A stretch of 64,000 nt of DNA from the NCBI GenBank assembly GCA_028692715.1, contig JAQUWU010000009.1, positions 1 through 64,000 on the forward strand. The letters are read 5' to 3'. Position 1 is the stretch's first letter, and every line of letters starts with the position of its first letter. The translations under genes were made by a program, and so were the position numbers. Of this stretch, positions 1 to 24,128 are shown piece after piece. The notes below the pieces were generated by a model. That model was given only the letters and a program-made list of their open reading frames with translations. It was not told the DNA's origin and made no database searches. Source of the stretch: Paludibacter sp. (GTDB taxonomy: Bacteria > Bacteroidota > Bacteroidia > Bacteroidales > Paludibacteraceae).

Positions 1-130
1 TCACTTTATGTATTACAATCCAGTAATTAGAAAAAGGGATATAAAATAAAACAGGAATGAGATTAAAAAACGTTTTATAAATTAAAAATTAAATATAAAT
101 CTGTCAAGCTAAATTAGGACAAGACAATTA

Positions 131-336
131 GTACGAACGACTCAAACAGAATGCAGCGTTCATTCGTAGGGGTACGAACGAGCCAAACAGATCTGCAGCG
201 TTCATTCGTACTAGTACGAACGAGCCAAACAGAATGCAGCGTTCATTCGTATGGGTACGAACGAGCCAAACAGAATGCAGCGTTCATTCGTATGGGTACG
301 AACGAGCCAAACAGAATGCAGCGTTCATTCGTACTA
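131..336. repeat. Five tandem 41-42 bp units, each an imperfect inverted repeat
   Basis: Units begin at 131, 172, 214, 255 and 296 (period 41, once 42). Each starts GTACGAACGA and ends TCATTCGTA, so the ends of a unit can pair (TACGAACGA against the complement of TCATTCGTA) as an imperfect hairpin. Units differ by a few substitutions: the first has ACTCAAAC for AGCCAAAC, the second ATCTGCAG for AATGCAG. The array is open in one frame, but I read that as a by-product of its composition. There are no unique spacers, so it is not CRISPR. Function unknown; an array of DNA-binding or structured-RNA sites is possible. Confidence 0.85.
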
Positions 337-499
337 GTCGGTGAAGGCCTGAAAAAGATCACGGTAGAGGTACGGAAGTACTCGATGGATATAATGGATA
401 TTTGTGGATAACTTGGTTGAAATAAGTGTGAAAAGAAAGGGGTATATTTGCGGAGAGATTATATTAACCTTGTTCTTTAACCTGATATGGATAAAAATT

Positions 500-5852: not shown

Positions 5853-6012
5853 GTGACTACTCAGCACTTCAAGAAGTACTTCAATTGACGTTTTTAGGAA
5901 AATTGCAGAGTAAAAAAATGTAATTTTCACAAAAAAAATAGCCAAATTAAAGCGCATAAATGATGAATGTTGCTCCAGAACTCCCCCTTTAGGGGGTTGG
6001 GGAGCTGAGTAG
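5853..6012 (+). mobile_element. MITE family A, copy 1, with 12-bp direct repeats
   Basis: The ends are CTACTCAGC (5857-5865) and its reverse complement GCTGAGTAG (6004-6012). The element is flanked by a perfect 12-bp direct repeat TTCCACTTTATT at 5841-5852 and 6013-6024, consistent with a target-site duplication. A near-identical copy lies in inverted orientation at 23762-23941, and a fragment at 61812-61855. No coding capacity. It fills most of the 5550-6056 gap, which otherwise holds AT-rich short direct repeats of the form AATTCATAATTCACAATT. Confidence 0.8.
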
Positions 6013-9268: not shown

Positions 9269-9464
9269 GAGACCAGTCCGAAAAAGAGTAGAACTTGCCT
9301 ACAGCAGGTAGGTGCAAATAACGCTGAAAACTACGAATAAACGCAAATATATAAATACATATAAATCACTATAATGTCCAAATTTCTTTTTGTGTAAATT
9401 TGTGCTATTTGCGTAATTTGCGCCTGTCTGCCATCAGGTTGATTCAAAAATGGTTTTTTGGAGG
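9269..9464 (+). mobile_element. MITE family B, copy 1
   Basis: The left end reads GACCAGTCCGAAAAAGAGTA. Near it is the palindrome CCTACAGCAGGTAGG, and near the right end CCTGTCTGCCATCAGG. The sequence is the reverse complement of 22020-22203 at about 75-80 percent by eye. A direct repeat ATTATT occurs at 9263-9268 and 9465-9470. The right copy overlaps the stop codon of the peroxiredoxin gene, so the element abuts that gene. No coding capacity. It fills the 9253-9468 gap. Confidence 0.7.
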
Positions 9465-15689: not shown

Positions 15690-16688
15690 ATGGCAGTAAC
15701 AATGGCAGAAATTTCAAAATTGCGCACCATGACTGGTGCTGGTATGATGGATTGCAAAAATGCACTTACTGAAACCGGAAGCGATTTAGAAAAAGCAATT
15801 GAAATTATACGTAAAAAAGGAAAGGCAGTAGCTGCAAAACGCAGTGATCGTGAAGCATCTGAAGGATGTGTTTTGGCTGCTTCAAATAACGGTTTTGCAG
15901 CAGTTTTAGCATTGAAATGTGAAACTGACTTCGTTGCAAAAAATGCTGACTTCATAGCATTGACTCAATCTATACTTGATGTTGCTATGGTTTCAAAACC
16001 AAAATCTTTAGATGAATTAAATGCATTGCAAATTGATGGTCGTTTAATCTCTGACTTGATTATTGAAAAGACAGGCGTTACCGGTGAAAAAATGGAATTG
16101 GATTATTACGAATTTGTTGAAGGTGGAACAACAACAGCCTATATTCACCCGGGAAATAAATTAGCTACTGTAGTTGCATTTGCTGAAAAAGATGCAGAAT
16201 ACGAAACGATTCGTGGCTTGGCAATGCACATTGCAGCAATGTCGCCGATAGCTATTGATGAATCAGCTGTACCTCAAAAGATTAAAGATAACGAGCTGGC
16301 TGTAGCTATCGAAAAAACCAAAATAGAACTTGTTGCAAAAGAAGTTGAAGTAGCGTTGAAAAAAGCGGGAATTAATCCTACTCACGTTGATAGCGAAGCT
16401 CACAATGAATCAAATATGTCAAAAGGCTGGATTACAGCAGAAGATGCAGCAAAAGCCCGCGAAATTAAAACAACGGTTATTGCAGAAAAATCAGCGAGTC
16501 TACCTGAACAGAAAGTAAACAGTATTGCTGCTGGACGTATGGCGAAATTCTTCAAAGAATATACCCTTTTAGATCAAAAATATGAAGGAGGCAGTGAAGA
16601 AGCAGGAAAAATTACTGTAAAAGAATTGCTTGCAAAAAAACACTATACCTGTGTTGCTTTTAAACGTGTTACGTTGAATCAGGAATAA
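15690..16688 (+). CDS. tsf: Elongation factor Ts
   Basis: A 332-residue EF-Ts, the GDP-GTP exchange factor for EF-Tu. The N-terminal UBA-like domain (1-55) has EISKLRTMTGAGMMDCKNAL. It is followed by the core motif LKCETDFVAKNADF (about 75-88) and the C-terminal dimer domain (about 100-332), including LAMHIAAMSP and FFKEYTLLDQKY. The length fits the longer Bacteroidota form. From codon 102 to 114 bp past the stop, the sequence is repeated almost perfectly at 20251-21060. A terminator follows. The ATG is preceded by no strong Shine-Dalgarno, as usual in this phylum; an in-frame second Met at codon 5 is an alternative. Confidence 0.97.
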   Translation: MAVTMAEISKLRTMTGAGMMDCKNALTETGSDLEKAIEIIRKKGKAVAAKRSDREASEGCVLAASNNGFAAVLALKCETDFVAKNADFIALTQSILDVAMVSKPKSLDELNALQIDGRLISDLIIEKTGVTGEKMELDYYEFVEGGTTTAYIHPGNKLATVVAFAEKDAEYETIRGLAMHIAAMSPIAIDESAVPQKIKDNELAVAIEKTKIELVAKEVEVALKKAGINPTHVDSEAHNESNMSKGWITAEDAAKAREIKTTVIAEKSASLPEQKVNSIAAGRMAKFFKEYTLLDQKYEGGSEEAGKITVKELLAKKHYTCVAFKRVTLNQE

Positions 16689-16802
16689 GAATTATATAAA
16701 TACTATAGAAAAGTCTTACGATTAATTTTGTAAGGCTTTTTTTTATTTATTATGGCTGAGTTATTTATTTGAAATTCATTTTTACTACAAAATTAATGAC
16801 TG
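15992..16802 (+). repeat. Upstream copy of the ~810-bp tsf direct repeat
   Basis: Positions 15992-16802 and 20251-21060 are direct repeats differing at only a handful of bases, for example TTTTAAACG/TTTCAAACG, GTTACGTTG/GTTACCTTG, and one T fewer in the terminator run. The repeat starts mid-gene and ends after ATTAATGACTG. The MBOAT and SGNH-like genes lie between the copies. Confidence 0.95.
16709..16744 (+). terminator. tsf terminator
   Basis: Inverted repeat AAAGTCTTAC / GTAAGGCTTT followed by eight T residues. The same terminator is duplicated after the truncated copy near 20968-21002, with one T fewer. Confidence 0.85.
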
Positions 16803-16838
16803 TTGTTCGGTAAACTTTGCAGTGGTGGTTCTTATTTT

Positions 16839-16997
16839 AGATTTCTCACTTTGTCCTGCCTCCAGTAGGTAGGTCGAAATGACAGTCTGCATTTTATATT
16901 TTTGGAGGGGGTTGGTAGGCGGCGAAGTCGCCTACCAACCCCCTCCAACACAAAAAACGTTATAGTAATCTGTCATTCAGAGCGAAGCGAAGAATCT
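16839..16997. mobile_element. MITE family D with a 20-bp perfect hairpin
   Basis: The left end (AGATTTCTCACTTTGTC ... GAAATGACAG, 16839-16884) is an imperfect inverted repeat of the right end (CTGTCATTCAG...GAAGAATCT, 16970-16997). Between them, stem 16902-16921 pairs perfectly with 16929-16948 around GCGAAGT, giving a very stable GC-rich hairpin. The left part holds CCTGCCTCCAGTAGGTAGG, related to the palindrome in families B and C. No coding capacity. Confidence 0.65.
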
Positions 16998-17532
16998 GAT
17001 TTTTTTTTACTGGACAATAATAAAAATTTATGACTGAATTTGTAATACCGTATGCATCCTTAGTTATCCCCTTTATGTGGCACAAATGCAACGCATAATA
17101 TCAGCAAACTACATTCAAGTAAGAGCGAAACATCTCATTCTATAACCGCAAGACGGGTGATGGTATGAAGAATGTATGTTTGGGTGGTTCTCTATGTCGT
17201 TTTCATAAGTAATTCTTTTAATATGAAAAAGGTGCTTGACAAAACCATTACTGATTTTAGGCACTTTGTATGTTGAATATATCTCAGATTCATTTTTATT
17301 TATGATTTTTTCGGCTGTGCACGTTAATTCGTCATTCTGTTTTTTTTTGTTTCTATTATTTCGTCGGTACGCATGTGGTTATTCAGTTGTTCACACATGT
17401 AATCAACTACAACTACATTCTACAAATCCTCACGAAAAGATACAAAAAAAACGAAAATTATCAGTAACTTTGTTCTTTTTTTTGTGGGAAAATTATCTTG
17501 CAAAAATCAATTATACTTGATCACTAAATACC
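16998..17532. other. Non-coding DNA upstream of the MBOAT gene
   Basis: Contains a GC-richer stretch (17095-17190) unlike the neighbouring AT-rich spacers, and then AT-rich DNA. TAACTTTG at 17465-17472 is a likely -7 box for the MBOAT gene, without a clear -33 TTG. A 94-codon open frame (17236-17520) is rich in Phe and Cys and has no recognisable family; I do not support it as a gene. Confidence 0.5.
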
Positions 17533-18993
17533 ATGATTTTCACTTCAATAGGATTTGCAATATTTTTACCTGTAGTTTTTCTACTCTATTGGTTTGCAAC
17601 AAAAGGAAATTTTAAATTCCAGAATATCCTATTACTTGTTTCAAGCTATTTTTTTTACGGTTGCTGGGACTGGCGCTTTTTGTTTTTACTCCTCTTCTCC
17701 ACTTCACTTGATTTTGTGACAGGTTTAAAAATTCACGATGCTGAAAATAAAAGCACAAAAAAAATCTGGTTTTGGTTGAGTATTTGTGTGAATCTAGGAT
17801 TCTTAGGTGTTTTTAAATACTATAATTTCTTTGCAACTTCTTTTGCCGAAGGACTCTCTTCGGTGGGTGTTTATGCAGATTTTTGGACATTAAATATTAT
17901 TTTGCCTGTCGGTATTTCCTTCTACACTTTTCATGGATTATCTTATGTGATTGATACTTACAATGACAAGATTAAACCCGAAAGAAACTTCATAAATTAC
18001 GCTGTTTTTGTTTCATTCTTTCCTTTGCTTGTAGCAGGTCCCATTGAAAGAGCCACTCATTTATTACCCCAGATTATAAAAAAAAGAGAATTCGACTACT
18101 TAAAAGCGGTGGACGGCATGCGTCAGATTCTCTGGGGTTTGTTCAAAAAAATGGTAGTGGCTGATAATTGTGCAGAAATTAGCAACCATATTTTTGGGAC
18201 CTACCAAGCCCAAAGTGGAAGTATGCTTTTTTTGGGAGCCGTTGCCTTTGCTTTTCAAATATATGGTGACTTTTCGGGTTACTCAGATATTGCTATTGGG
18301 ACTGCCAAACTTTTTGGGATTGATCTTCTGCGAAATTTTGCCTATCCCTATTTTTCAAGAGATATTGCAGAATTTTGGAGACGATGGCATATTTCACTCA
18401 CATCATGGCTAAAAGATTATCTATACATCCCTCTGGGCGGTAGTAGAGGAACGAAAGCCAAAGTAATACGGAATACACTCGTGATTTTTTTAGTTAGTGG
18501 TTTTTGGCACGGGGCTAACTGGACATTTATCGCATGGGGGGGATTTCATGCCTTATTTTTTTTACCTTTAATCCTGTGGAAATCCAATCGAAAAAACATC
18601 AATATTGTTGCGGAAGGAAAGAGGCTTCCAAGTTTTAAAGATTCATTTCAAATACTTTCTACTTTCTTTTTGGTTACTGTCGGCTGGATATTTTTTCGGG
18701 CGGAAACAATCGAAAAAGCAGCAGCTTATATCAAAAGGATGTTTAGTTTTGACACAAACTATTTCGACACATCAGCATTTACTGATTTAAGTGGAAGCTT
18801 ATCTGGTTTTACACTTTTATTTTCAGTGCTCTCGGTTTTAGTGTTAATTTTAGTGGAGTGGAATAACCGGGATAAAATGCATGGATTTGATGTATCAAAT
18901 AAAAAATTCAGATGGCCAATGTATATCGCCTTGTGCCTGTCAATTTATATCTGTCAGGGCGGTTCATCAGCATTTATCTATTTTCAATTTTAG
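17533..18993 (+). CDS. MBOAT-family membrane O-acyltransferase
   Basis: A 486-residue polytopic membrane protein of the AlgI/DltB-like MBOAT family, which moves acyl (often acetyl) groups across the membrane onto exported polysaccharides or other envelope polymers. Diagnostic stretches are LLLVSSYFFYGCWDW, ILPVGISFYTFHGLSYVID, FFPLLVAGPIERA, YGDFSGYSDIAIG, FWRRWHISLTSWLKDYLYIP and VSGFWHGANWTFIAWG. The His in GFWHGANW (near residue 326) is the catalytic histidine. It is separated by 3 bp from an SGNH-like gene, the usual partnership in which the MBOAT supplies acyl groups and the SGNH protein completes transfer. Both sit between the two tsf copies and may have arrived as a unit. The acceptor polymer is unknown. 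Confidence 0.93.
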   Translation: MIFTSIGFAIFLPVVFLLYWFATKGNFKFQNILLLVSSYFFYGCWDWRFLFLLLFSTSLDFVTGLKIHDAENKSTKKIWFWLSICVNLGFLGVFKYYNFFATSFAEGLSSVGVYADFWTLNIILPVGISFYTFHGLSYVIDTYNDKIKPERNFINYAVFVSFFPLLVAGPIERATHLLPQIIKKREFDYLKAVDGMRQILWGLFKKMVVADNCAEISNHIFGTYQAQSGSMLFLGAVAFAFQIYGDFSGYSDIAIGTAKLFGIDLLRNFAYPYFSRDIAEFWRRWHISLTSWLKDYLYIPLGGSRGTKAKVIRNTLVIFLVSGFWHGANWTFIAWGGFHALFFLPLILWKSNRKNINIVAEGKRLPSFKDSFQILSTFFLVTVGWIFFRAETIEKAAAYIKRMFSFDTNYFDTSAFTDLSGSLSGFTLLFSVLSVLVLILVEWNNRDKMHGFDVSNKKFRWPMYIALCLSIYICQGGSSAFIYFQF

Positions 18994-18996
18994 TAC

Positions 18997-19971
18997 ATGA
19001 AGAAATTCTTAATCTATATTCTCGGCTTATCAATAGTAATCATTTTACTATTTTCACTTATCACTTTTATTACTGATAAAGGACTGGAGAAGTCGGAATA
19101 TGGCAATTTGAAAGAATGGAGTGATATTTTTGATAAAAAGATTCATTCGAATATTGTCATTCAGGGAAGTTCGCGTGCGTGGGTGCAGTTCAATACCTAT
19201 ATTCTTGATTCTGTTTTAAATGCAGATGCCTATAATATGGGGATGGATGGCACTCCTTTTGACCTGCAATATGTAAAGTACAAGTCCTATGTAGAGAGCA
19301 ACAAATATCCTGAACTAATTCTCCAAAACGTTGACTGGGATACAATGGATAAAAATATACCAGTATTCCAAAAATATCAATTGCTACCGTTTTTGAACAA
19401 CCATTATTTTGGCGAACAACTGTTGAACAACAATATAATACCTTACAAAGATGTTTATTTACCGTTTTTAAAATATACAGGAGAACCAAAAGCTATTCAG
19501 GTTGGAATTGCCGAGTATTTTGGCATTAAGCACTATGCATCTCCTAAGCATAAAGGATTTATGAGTGTTGAAGAAAACTGGAATGAAAGTAATTTTAAAA
19601 AGAGAAAGAATGGAGGTAAAGTTCATTGGGTAAAGGATCCTGAAGTGGAGAAACTTTTTATTGAATTCTTACAGGATTGTCAAAGTAAAAACATAAAAGT
19701 CGTTTTGGTTTTTGCACCTTATTACCATGAACTTGACAATATAATTATAGACATGACCGGATTAAAAACTTACTATAGAAATATAGCAAAAGAATTTAAA
19801 GTTGATTTTTTAGATTTTTCAACAGATTCGATTTCTAATGATAAAAAATACTTCTACAATGCTAGTCATTTGAATAAAAAAGGAGATGAAATATTTACTT
19901 TGGAATTAGCAAGAATGCTGAAAGAAATGCAAATTGTTAAATCTGCGAACGCAAATCAATCAGATAAATGA
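18997..19971 (+). CDS. SGNH-hydrolase-like partner of the MBOAT protein
   Basis: A 324-residue protein with one N-terminal membrane anchor (about 5-26) and an extracytoplasmic SGNH/GDSL-like domain. The nucleophile block is IVIQGSSRAW (Ser58 or Ser59). The mid-domain has YNMGMDGTPFDL with the conserved Asn/Gly region, and the C-terminal block NASHLNKKGDEIF carries the likely catalytic His (about 291). This layout matches the DltD/AlgX-like proteins coded beside MBOAT acyltransferases, which finish O-acylation outside the membrane. It starts 3 bp after the MBOAT stop. No polymer-synthesis genes are nearby, so the target cannot be named. Only a weak inverted repeat (AAAGGCCTTT) follows the gene. 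Confidence 0.75.
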   Translation: MKKFLIYILGLSIVIILLFSLITFITDKGLEKSEYGNLKEWSDIFDKKIHSNIVIQGSSRAWVQFNTYILDSVLNADAYNMGMDGTPFDLQYVKYKSYVESNKYPELILQNVDWDTMDKNIPVFQKYQLLPFLNNHYFGEQLLNNNIIPYKDVYLPFLKYTGEPKAIQVGIAEYFGIKHYASPKHKGFMSVEENWNESNFKKRKNGGKVHWVKDPEVEKLFIEFLQDCQSKNIKVVLVFAPYYHELDNIIIDMTGLKTYYRNIAKEFKVDFLDFSTDSISNDKKYFYNASHLNKKGDEIFTLELARMLKEMQIVKSANANQSDK

Positions 19972-20233
19972 GCATTTAAACTGAAAGGCCTTTTTATCAT
20001 TTTCTTGTATATCGTGTAAATATGTTGGTTAACATATAATAATAACTTCTTCGCATCAATTACTAATTATACTATGGTTATTGCCGTTGCTACAAACAAA
20101 TAGTATCAATTAGACTAACTTGCCCCTACCTTCCACAGTTAAGGTTGAAATGGCTATATTTTTTGTACAAATTGTCAAAAAATAAAAATACAATTGCTTA
20201 AATTATTAACTTGATAAAAGAAAGAAAATTAAA

Positions 20234-21144
20234 AATATCGATATTATAGCTTCAAAACAAAAATCTTTAGATGAATTAAATGCATTGCAAATTGATGGTC
20301 GTTTAATCTCTGACTTGATTATTGAAAAGACAGGCGTTACCGGTGAAAAAATGGAATTGGATTATTACGAATTTGTTGAAGGTGGAACAACAACAGCCTA
20401 TATTCACCCGGGAAATAAATTAGCTACTGTAGTTGCATTTGCTGAAAAAGATGCAGAATACGAAACGATTCGTGGCTTGGCAATGCACATTGCAGCAATG
20501 TCGCCGATAGCTATTGATGAATCAGCTGTACCTCAAAAGATTAAAGATAACGAGCTGGCTGTAGCTATCGAAAAAACCAAAATAGAACTTGTTGCAAAAG
20601 AAGTTGAAGTAGCGTTGAAAAAAGCGGGAATTAATCCTACTCACGTTGATAGCGAAGCTCACAATGAATCAAATATGTCAAAAGGCTGGATTACAGCAGA
20701 AGATGCAGCAAAAGCCCGCGAAATTAAAACAACGGTTATTGCAGAAAAATCAGCGAGTCTACCTGAACAGAAAGTAAACAGTATTGCTGCTGGACGTATG
20801 GCGAAATTCTTCAAAGAATATACCCTTTTAGATCAAAAATATGAAGGAGGCAGTGAAGAAGCAGGAAAAATTACTGTAAAAGAATTGCTTGCAAAAAAAC
20901 ACTATACCTGTGTTGCTTTCAAACGTGTTACCTTGAATCAGGAATAAGAATTATATAAATACTATAGAAAAGTCTTACGATTAATTTTGTAAGGCTTTTT
21001 TTATTTATTATGGCTGAATTATTTATTTGGAATTCATTTTTACTACAAAATTAATGACTGAGTTTGTATTTTAATAAAAACACAAACTGTCCTATACTGA
21101 TAATATTTTTAAAAAATAAAATTTATAATATCGATATTATAGCT
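20234..21144 (+). repeat. 18-bp direct repeats flanking the truncated tsf copy
   Basis: AATATCGATATTATAGCT occurs at 20234-20251, directly at the start of the duplicated block, and again at 21127-21144, 66 bp after its end. The core AATATCGATATT is a perfect palindrome. The second copy lies 20-37 bp upstream of a TATATTTG box (21164-21171) that would serve the response-regulator gene at 21326. The pair could mark an insertion, or be a duplicated regulatory site. Confidence 0.8.
20251..20947 (+). pseudogene. tsf: 5'-truncated duplicate of tsf
   Basis: This copies codons from about 102 to the stop of the intact tsf at 15690, plus 113 bp of 3' flank with its terminator. It lacks the N-terminal UBA-like domain and the TDFVAKN core that contact EF-Tu, so it could not act as an exchange factor. 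Only a TTG (20285) is available near the start, and no promoter box is visible upstream. The frame is intact for 220 codons with very few substitutions, which means a recent duplication or continuing gene conversion. The 16803-20250 segment with the MBOAT pair lies between the copies. Confidence 0.9.
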
Positions 21145-21325: not shown

Positions 21326-21940
21326 ATGATTAAAATATTTATAGTCGACGATCATGAAATTGTACGTGAGGGACTAAAACAAATTCTATTGGATGACACG
21401 GAATTTGATGTTGTTGGAGAGGCGAGAGATGGTGTTGAATTATTTAAAAAAATTAGAAATCTAAATTCTGATATCATTTTAATGGATTTAAATCTACCAG
21501 GGAAAAATGGCAATGAACTAATAATGGAACTTAAGAAGAAAAAAATTAAATCGAAAGTGTTAGTGTTGACAATAAATCCCGAACAACGATTTGCTCTAAA
21601 ATCATTTAAAGCTGGTGCTTCCGGTTTTATCGATAAAAGTTCGGCAGTTGACGATTTGGTAACTGCCATTCACACTGTTTATGAAACCGGAAGATATTTG
21701 AGTCCGGCTTTTGCCGAACAAATTGCTTTCGATAGTTTAACGAGTGTTGACAGTAAAAATCATCAATTGACTTACAATGAACTAAAATTTGCAATGATGC
21801 TTAACGAAGGGCATGATGTGAAGAATATAGCTTCTGACCTCGGAATTGATCATGCCAATGCAGTAGCTATAAAAAGAAAAATCTTTAAAAAACTGAATAT
21901 TAAGAGTTATATTGATTTGGTCCATTATTTCAGAAACTAA
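21326..21940 (+). CDS. NarL/FixJ-type response regulator (orphan)
   Basis: A 204-residue two-domain regulator. Receiver domain (1-120): acidic pocket VDDH (Asp8, Asp9), phospho-acceptor Asp54 in ILMDLNLPG, switch Thr82 in LVLTIN, and Lys104 in GFIDKSS; all key residues are present. The C-terminal helix-turn-helix (about 145-204) is of LuxR type (LTYNELKFAMMLNEG...IASDLGIDHANAVAIKRKIFKKL), though more divergent than usual in the recognition helix. No histidine kinase is adjacent. TATATTTG (21164-21171) is a probable -7 box, giving a leader of about 150 nt; one copy of an 18-bp direct repeat lies just upstream of it. A strong terminator follows. Target genes unknown. Confidence 0.9.
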   Translation: MIKIFIVDDHEIVREGLKQILLDDTEFDVVGEARDGVELFKKIRNLNSDIILMDLNLPGKNGNELIMELKKKKIKSKVLVLTINPEQRFALKSFKAGASGFIDKSSAVDDLVTAIHTVYETGRYLSPAFAEQIAFDSLTSVDSKNHQLTYNELKFAMMLNEGHDVKNIASDLGIDHANAVAIKRKIFKKLNIKSYIDLVHYFRN

Positions 21941-22019: not shown

Positions 22020-22203
22020 GACTGAACTTCGAAAAGTAATTTTTGAATCTACCTGATGGCAGACAGGCGCAAATTACGCAAATTATGCAAGTTTACACAA
22101 AAGATAAATCACATATTCTATAGGTTTATATATATTTGCGATTTTCAGTGTTATTTGTGCCTACCTGCTGTAGGCAGGTTCTACTCTTTTTCGGAGTGGA
22201 CTC
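22020..22203 (-). mobile_element. MITE family B, copy 2
   Basis: The ends GACTGAACTTCGAAAAGTA and (on the other strand) GAGTCCACTCCGAAAAAGAG are imperfect inverted repeats. Internal palindromes CCTGATGGCAGACAGG and CCTACCTGCTGTAGGCAGG match copy 1 at 9269-9464 in opposite orientation. A direct repeat TTCTAT flanks it at 22014-22019 and 22204-22209. No coding capacity. Confidence 0.75.
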
Positions 22204-23761: not shown

Positions 23762-23941
23762 ACTACTCAGCCCCCCAACCCCTCCCTCCTACGTTAGGAG
23801 GTAAACACCTAAAGGGGGAGTTCTGGAGCGACATTCATCATTTATGCGCTTTAATTTGGCTATTTTTTTGTGAAAATTTCATTTTTTTTTACTTTGCAAT
23901 TTTCCTAAAAACGTCAATTGAAGTACTTCTTGAAGTGCTGA
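23762..23941 (-). mobile_element. MITE family A, copy 2 (inverted)
   Basis: Reverse complement of 5853-6012, nearly identical across about 160 bp, with about 20 extra bp (CCTCCTACGTTAGGAGG region) in the C-rich part. One end is intact (ACTACTCAGC) and the other degraded (GTGCTGACTTG). A short direct repeat TTGTTTTT flanks it at 23751-23758 and 23950-23957. The rest of the 23643-24128 gap holds a TATATTTG box at 24013-24020 for the next gene. Confidence 0.75.
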
Positions 23942-24128
23942 CTTGTCACTTGTTTTTCAATTTGTCTGCTTAACAAATTATCTTAACCGATAAAATTGTG
24001 AAAATAAATATTTATATTTGCAGAGAGAATTCTAAATTTATTATTCTTGTCAACTAGTCATTTTTTTAATATTAATACTTGTTCAAGGAAATAACCCAAC
24101 AATTATTTTAAGCACAAAGGACTAAAAA

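Follow-up and report, generated by a model that had tools for sequence, protein, structure and literature searches.

Campbell-type integration leaves the homologous segment directly repeated at the two ends of the insert, so that one complete and one truncated version of the target gene result. A locus of similar layout is described here from a 64,000-nucleotide stretch of Paludibacter sp. DNA (GenBank assembly GCA_028692715.1, contig JAQUWU010000009.1, positions 1 to 64,000; 'the window'), in which a near-identical, direct duplication of part of the tsf gene flanks, on both sides, an insert carrying genes for a membrane-bound O-acyltransferase (MBOAT) and an SGNH-like protein. As in a Campbell-type integrant, tsf is whole on one side of the insert and truncated on the other. 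The locus differs from such an integrant in that no vector, integrase or circle is seen, in that it is better read as a filled and an empty allele in tandem, and in that any circle would have been closed illegitimately. In Streptococcus pneumoniae, natural transformation produces merodiploids (Johnston et al., 2013, PMC3784515), which resemble the tsf locus in being tandem duplications that hold a locus in two allelic forms, one of them with an insertion. The pneumococcal duplications are reported as ∼ 100–900 kb and bordered by pre-existing repeats, whereas the present one is 0.9 kb with a 1-bp junction overlap. In Burkholderia thailandensis, 208.6 kb between insertion sequence (IS) elements undergoes RecA-dependent duplication and resolution, and the switch between states was demonstrated (PMC9946442). 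There, as here, direct repeats allow a change of copy state by recombination, but any switching at the tsf locus is hypothetical.

The enclosed genes also have described counterparts. DltB with DltD is a pair of an MBOAT and an SGNH protein, and in the tsf locus, too, an MBOAT protein with a DltB-like sequence adjoins an SGNH-like protein. The same likeness holds for AlgI with AlgJ/AlgX, an MBOAT and SGNH O-acylation pair (PMC4148444). Literature searches on merodiploids and Campbell-type integration, on MBOAT/SGNH proteins, and on tsf with a genomic island or partial copy named no such locus in the titles of the matches listed. As a readable fossil of DNA import, the locus belongs to a type with bacterial precedents.

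The intact tsf gene (15690–16688, forward strand; 332 aa), recognised from the open reading frame (ORF) list, a genome search and a family scan, contributes part of its coding sequence, its terminator and its 3' flank to the left copy of the duplication (15992–16802, forward strand). Local alignment matches this to a right copy (20251–21060, forward strand) that retains the terminator and 3' flank but is 5'-truncated, with approximately the first 100 codons gone and the remainder in frame. The copies, of 811 and 810 bp, share 805 identities and differ by five substitutions, three inside tsf (16000, 16661 and 16673) and two in the 3' flank, and by a single 1-bp indel located in a T run; a repeat finder places the start of the repeat at 15986/20245. 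A terminator-like hairpin is present in both (16707–16742 and 20966–21001), and the insert separating them spans 16803–20250 (3,448 bp). These data bear out the original prediction of an 810-bp tsf duplication around an MBOAT-SGNH module, with a whole tsf followed by ∼ 3.4 kb and then by a truncated, near-identical 3' part with its terminator. Self-comparison showed this to be by far the longest repeat of the window, the next extending over 184 columns at 79% and 143 columns at 94% identity; the window sequence contains no N. A third tsf location was not found when the 4.85-Mb genome (122 contigs) was searched.

The differences between the tsf copies are clustered: 660 bp (16001–16660) are identical, and five of the six differences lie in the last 142 bp. 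A uniform scatter of six events leaves a 660-bp gap with P ∼ 2.6e-4 (∼ 0.026% of draws). Because the differences sit at the copy edges while the core is identical, this pattern suggests gene conversion between the copies. Compared in relatives, the coding differences at 16661 and 16673 do not tell the native copy from the other; at position 16000, the base of the right copy occurs in no relative with data.

Two intact genes lie in the insert. The first (17533–18993, forward strand; 486 aa) encodes an MBOAT-family O-acyltransferase according to Pfam and NCBIfam (PF03062, 3.1e-29, 102.7 bits against a cut-off of 27); it falls under the cut-off of the DltB equivalog TIGR04091 (155.5 versus 375 bits). 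The second (18997–19971, forward strand; 324 aa) encodes an SGNH-like partner protein that probably has a membrane helix at its N terminus; it was assigned from motifs and from a weak NCBIfam SGNH/GDSL match (16.2 bits against a cut-off of 300). The motifs, GSSR and NASHLN, were read by eye and are presumably SGNH-like; Pfam and PDB sequence searches with this protein returned no match, and its single-sequence structure model is poor (predicted local distance difference test score 42.8). Relatives are labelled here with G, loci with L and contigs of the source genome with C, and the collections contain one genome per species. Against relative G063, non-synonymous divergence (dN) is 0.037 for MBOAT and 0.090 for the SGNH-like gene, and synonymous divergence (dS) is 0.55, giving dN/dS ratios of ∼ 0.07 and ∼ 0.16; with dN this far under dS, both genes have stayed under constraint. 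Judged by family, the two products likely form a two-component O-acyltransferase for a surface glycan.

The origin of the pair was examined among 100 genomes, source genome included. The closest MBOAT homologues are those of G020 (93% amino acid identity) and G063 (92%). The SGNH-like gene has a match at 1e-5 in 14 of the 100 genomes, again counting the source, with 81% identity in G063 and 82% in G020 over 283 residues, up to the contig end. In four relatives (G063, G020, G022 and G009) the pair lies directly downstream of glyS. In G009 (L193, 7668–10082) the match to MBOAT and that to SGNH are each broken in two near the 3' end of the gene, and because of this split the genes there may be frameshifted or contain sequence errors. 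The genes of the donor-type locus are named glycine-tRNA ligase (glyS), DNA gyrase/topoisomerase IV subunit A (parC is used as shorthand) and class I fumarase. Upstream of MBOAT in the window, positions 17233–17509 align with the 5' end of a congener's parC (reverse strand) and the parC-glyS intergenic region, at 84% identity to G063 and 85% to G020, whereas the native locus aligns at 70% over 128 columns. In the window, the sequence upstream of glyS runs directly into that downstream of it, and glyS itself is gone. The junction (17502–17509) reads AAAAATCA, and in both G063 and G020 the 8-mer TAAAATCA stands at both parental sites; since the break sites share it, glyS was apparently lost by deletion between 8-bp direct repeats.

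The source genome has its own fumarase-parC-glyS locus on contig C69, which does not carry the MBOAT-SGNH pair, and one distant MBOAT elsewhere (C34, 45%). The proportion of synonymous differences (pS) to G063 and G020 is 0.39 and 0.41 for MBOAT and 0.39 and 0.43 for the SGNH-like gene, versus 0.68 and 0.70 for native glyS, 0.75 and 0.76 for parC, and 0.70 and 0.72 for fumarase. Because the module values are far below those of the native genes, and the native locus is without the pair, the pair most likely came from some relative of G063 and G020 outside the sampled genomes. The retained glyS upstream region contains a TAnnTTTG-like box, TAACTTTG, which is identical in the alignment with G063 and which we take to resemble the Bacteroidetes promoter consensus; the region may act as a promoter for MBOAT. 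Base composition, which the original prediction had proposed comparing with that of the neighbours, carries no foreign mark, the G+C content at third codon positions of MBOAT (0.324) and SGNH (0.295) falling inside the range of eight neighbouring genes (0.231–0.367). Two candidate vehicles were also rejected: a distant blastn search of plasmids with the module gave two weak records of 72,556, and 16 viral contigs encode MBOAT relatives, with no near match among them (best 56% over full length, one 68% over 131 residues).

The extent of the duplicated unit is indicated by an 18-mer at the start of the right copy that recurs 66 bp past the end of that copy. The first occurrence, X' (20234–20251), ends on the first base of the right tsf copy and is an exact copy of X (21127–21144), with which the module-free spacer of the right copy (21061–21144) ends. 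Exact searches of the genome found the 18-mer only in these two places, and none of 5000 shuffled spacer pairs shared a run of 18 (longest 17). Owing to this recurrence, the duplicated unit is probably ∼ 894 bp, comprising the tsf part, the terminator and the spacer to X, with the left copy filled and the right copy empty. The X'/tsf junction is non-homologous, with a 1-bp overlap. The spacer of relative G018 shows a gap at X in global alignment, so that X either is not ancient at this locus or has disappeared from G018. The resemblance between the whole spacer and the sequence preceding the right copy was also assessed and is not significant beyond the 18-mer.

The insert holds other DNA besides the module. 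A short interspersed element, A (16803–17021, edges approximate), was delimited by same-genome matches and perhaps resembles a miniature inverted-repeat transposable element. In a search of 10 genomes, the source genome gave eight matches to element A, two of them being the element itself and its own hairpin, with kin at the end of C111, at the start of C65, and on C66 and C44; two relatives had one match each, of at most 45 bases, and seven had none. Behind element A the tsf 3' flank seems to resume (17023–17044), as 20 of 22 bases equal those at 21047–21068 when compared by eye. The first 14 of these bases also repeat those just before element A (13/14), which limits the new flank to 17037–17044, where 7 of 8 bases match, again by eye. 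There follows a decayed fragment from the interior of an IS66-family transposase gene, tnpC (17065–17232, forward strand), identified by a family scan and by comparison with an IS66 on C37 that has both tnpB and tnpC; it abuts the foreign parC fragment at 17232/17233. A decayed interspersed element, B (20070–20205), recognised from same-genome matches, has kin on C111, C110 and other contigs. The insert ORFs of at least 80 aa are MBOAT, SGNH, one with a TTG start over the parC/glyS fragment, and two inside MBOAT and SGNH. No intact integrase or recombinase gene was found in the insert, where the family scan was not applied to the three minor ORFs and the tnpC piece is a remnant. There is likewise no short attachment-site repeat restoring a gene end, the repeat being 810 bp and including the terminator. 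As a separate observation, the end of C111 (87135–87264) and the start of C65 (11–154) each hold part of element A, and on that account the two contigs may be neighbours broken at the element A hairpin.

Taken together, these features are best accounted for, with a probability of about one half, by a filled allele that recombined once with an empty tsf locus, through Campbell-type integration or an equivalent merodiploid. On this account the donor of the pair was most likely a congener resembling G063 and G020, in which the two genes form the tail of a glyS-MBOAT-SGNH cluster; glyS was apparently deleted between the 8-bp repeats, fusing its upstream region to MBOAT, and the pair arrived in the spacer behind tsf. 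DNA of the filled allele would then have circularised, or been linked end to end, through the illegitimate X'/tsf junction, and a single crossover with an empty tsf locus would have given a heterozygous duplication, in which later gene conversion may have kept the 660-bp core identical. Selection for the module could keep the duplication in place, since any crossover from one tsf copy to the other drops the module. Read in this way, the locus records, step by step, a gene acquisition between species of one genus, from the donor locus and the deletion of glyS, an essential gene that was redundant here and whose upstream region was kept, to the arrival beside an essential translation gene left unbroken and, probably, a later conversion; it would also illustrate how a cell-surface gene pair gains a housekeeping promoter region en route. 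The original prediction allowed for a recent event or for gene conversion. Recency is doubtful, since the left copy has element A inside it, decay is visible in element B and in the IS66 fragment, and the differences are clustered, a pattern that favours the conversion half of that proposal.

The Campbell-type product originally proposed stands in so far as tsf remains whole and a direct duplication of part of it brackets a foreign module; a single recombination of a circle does not follow, because the same anatomy is left if the duplication came first. A spontaneous ∼ 894-bp tandem duplication in the resident chromosome, with the module later entering the left spacer and replacing ∼ 40–60 bp, fits almost as well as a single crossover, and is entertained here as a tentative alternative. 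Such a duplication would account for a non-homologous X'/tsf junction of the short-junction type, the left copy seems to retain both spacer edges, as insertion into a complete copy gives, and the spacer accepts insertions, as is clear from element A and the IS66 remnant. It requires two independent events at one place, however, and recombination would be expected to remove a bare 894-bp tandem repeat before any unrelated insertion took place. The single crossover is preferred because a bare repeat of this size would soon disappear, whereas one enclosing the module would be protected. An assembly artefact is unlikely; in that case the identical core would have misled the assembler, and the true place of the module would be elsewhere or on a small circle with a tsf fragment. 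The 660-bp exact core does exceed ordinary short-read length, the assembly consists of 122 contigs with 5.34% estimated contamination, and a graph through the core would also permit a module-free chromosome plus a 4.26-kb circle; yet the tsf copies differ at both edges, the junction bears an 18-mer of the native spacer, and element A has long matches only in the source genome among the 10 searched, which places the insert in the source organism. It is improbable that the module landed after tsf as part of an IS66-flanked transposon. The tnpC remnant adjoins the foreign parC fragment, and the genome does hold an IS66 with tnpB and tnpC, but that remnant stems from within tnpC, the insert region (16690–20260) matches the C37 IS66 at its left side only, so that related IS copies were not found at both insert ends, and transposition does not duplicate 810 bp of its target.

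Several observations weigh against the single-crossover reading or its supports. Neither the circle nor the crossover was directly seen, and a tsf mosaic marking the crossover, sought in 100-bp bins against 16 relatives, showed no clear switch, G018 and G048 being somewhat nearer in the tsf 3' part. With two mismatches allowed, the 18-mer occurs in four places versus three for a reversed control, and 50 of 1000 shuffles reach the local alignment score around it, which is not significant. The pS to G020 of tsf (0.48) and rpsB (0.59) lies nearer to the module values than does that of glyS, parC and fumarase, and may reflect codon constraint in highly expressed genes; stronger constraint on the tsf coding part may likewise add to the clustering of differences. 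The module of G063 sits on a contig of 280 kb, and no tsf match was found in this 75%-complete assembly, so that tsf and the module would have been joined in a separate, unseen step. Most assemblies of the relatives are fragmented, and a copy of a repeat could escape notice in them.

With that proviso, no second tsf copy was found in 63 relatives (39 plus 24 further, in which 15 candidates per genome were scored). Four of the 63 have no tsf match (G007, G009, G013 and G063), and extra matches are adjoining parts of one gene or pieces of at most 55 bp; of the 80 tsf loci from another search, four (L033–L036) were examined further. The region downstream of tsf was examined in 20 of the 63 relatives, those with at least 2.0 kb fetched after tsf (6.0 kb at most), contigs ending at or inside tsf being excluded (e.g. 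G002, G003 and G021), and the first ORF of at least 110 aa was used to name the following gene. That gene is gltX-like in nine (by NCBIfam in G048, by sequence likeness in the other eight), a response regulator in one (G018), and another gene in ten. A response regulator gene also follows in the window (21326–21940, forward strand; ORF and family scan), so that the ancestral order first proposed, tsf directly followed by the sequence from 21061 onward, is seen in G018 and not in the other 19. No MBOAT or SGNH match was found at tsf in the loci searched of 16 of the 20 relatives, and G048, G052, G054 and G056 have no genome-wide MBOAT match at 1e-20; the arrangement named beforehand as contradicting a duplication by integration, an MBOAT-SGNH pair at tsf without a second tsf copy, was not seen in the 20.

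A further, highly speculative idea is that the tsf copies serve as a recombination switch, in which loop-out of a ∼ 4.26-kb circle would leave tsf intact and reintegration would restore the module. Were this so, the population would vary in surface acylation at no translation cost, and repeated cycles of excision and reintegration would account for the identity of the 660-bp core.

Gene order downstream of tsf varies in the genus (L113–L131, L248, L249, L257 and L258). Some relatives of the genus (L017–L022 and L024) have a short tsf, with frames of ∼ 276–295 aa that are without a central stretch of the 332-aa form. Elsewhere in the window, two inverted dispersed repeats (23808–23949 with 5853–5993, 94% over 143 columns; 22039–22203 with 9269–9451, 79% over 184 columns) are probably interspersed elements. 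Short direct-repeat clusters, 84–94% identical, lie near the start of the window (129–338 and 801–1541).

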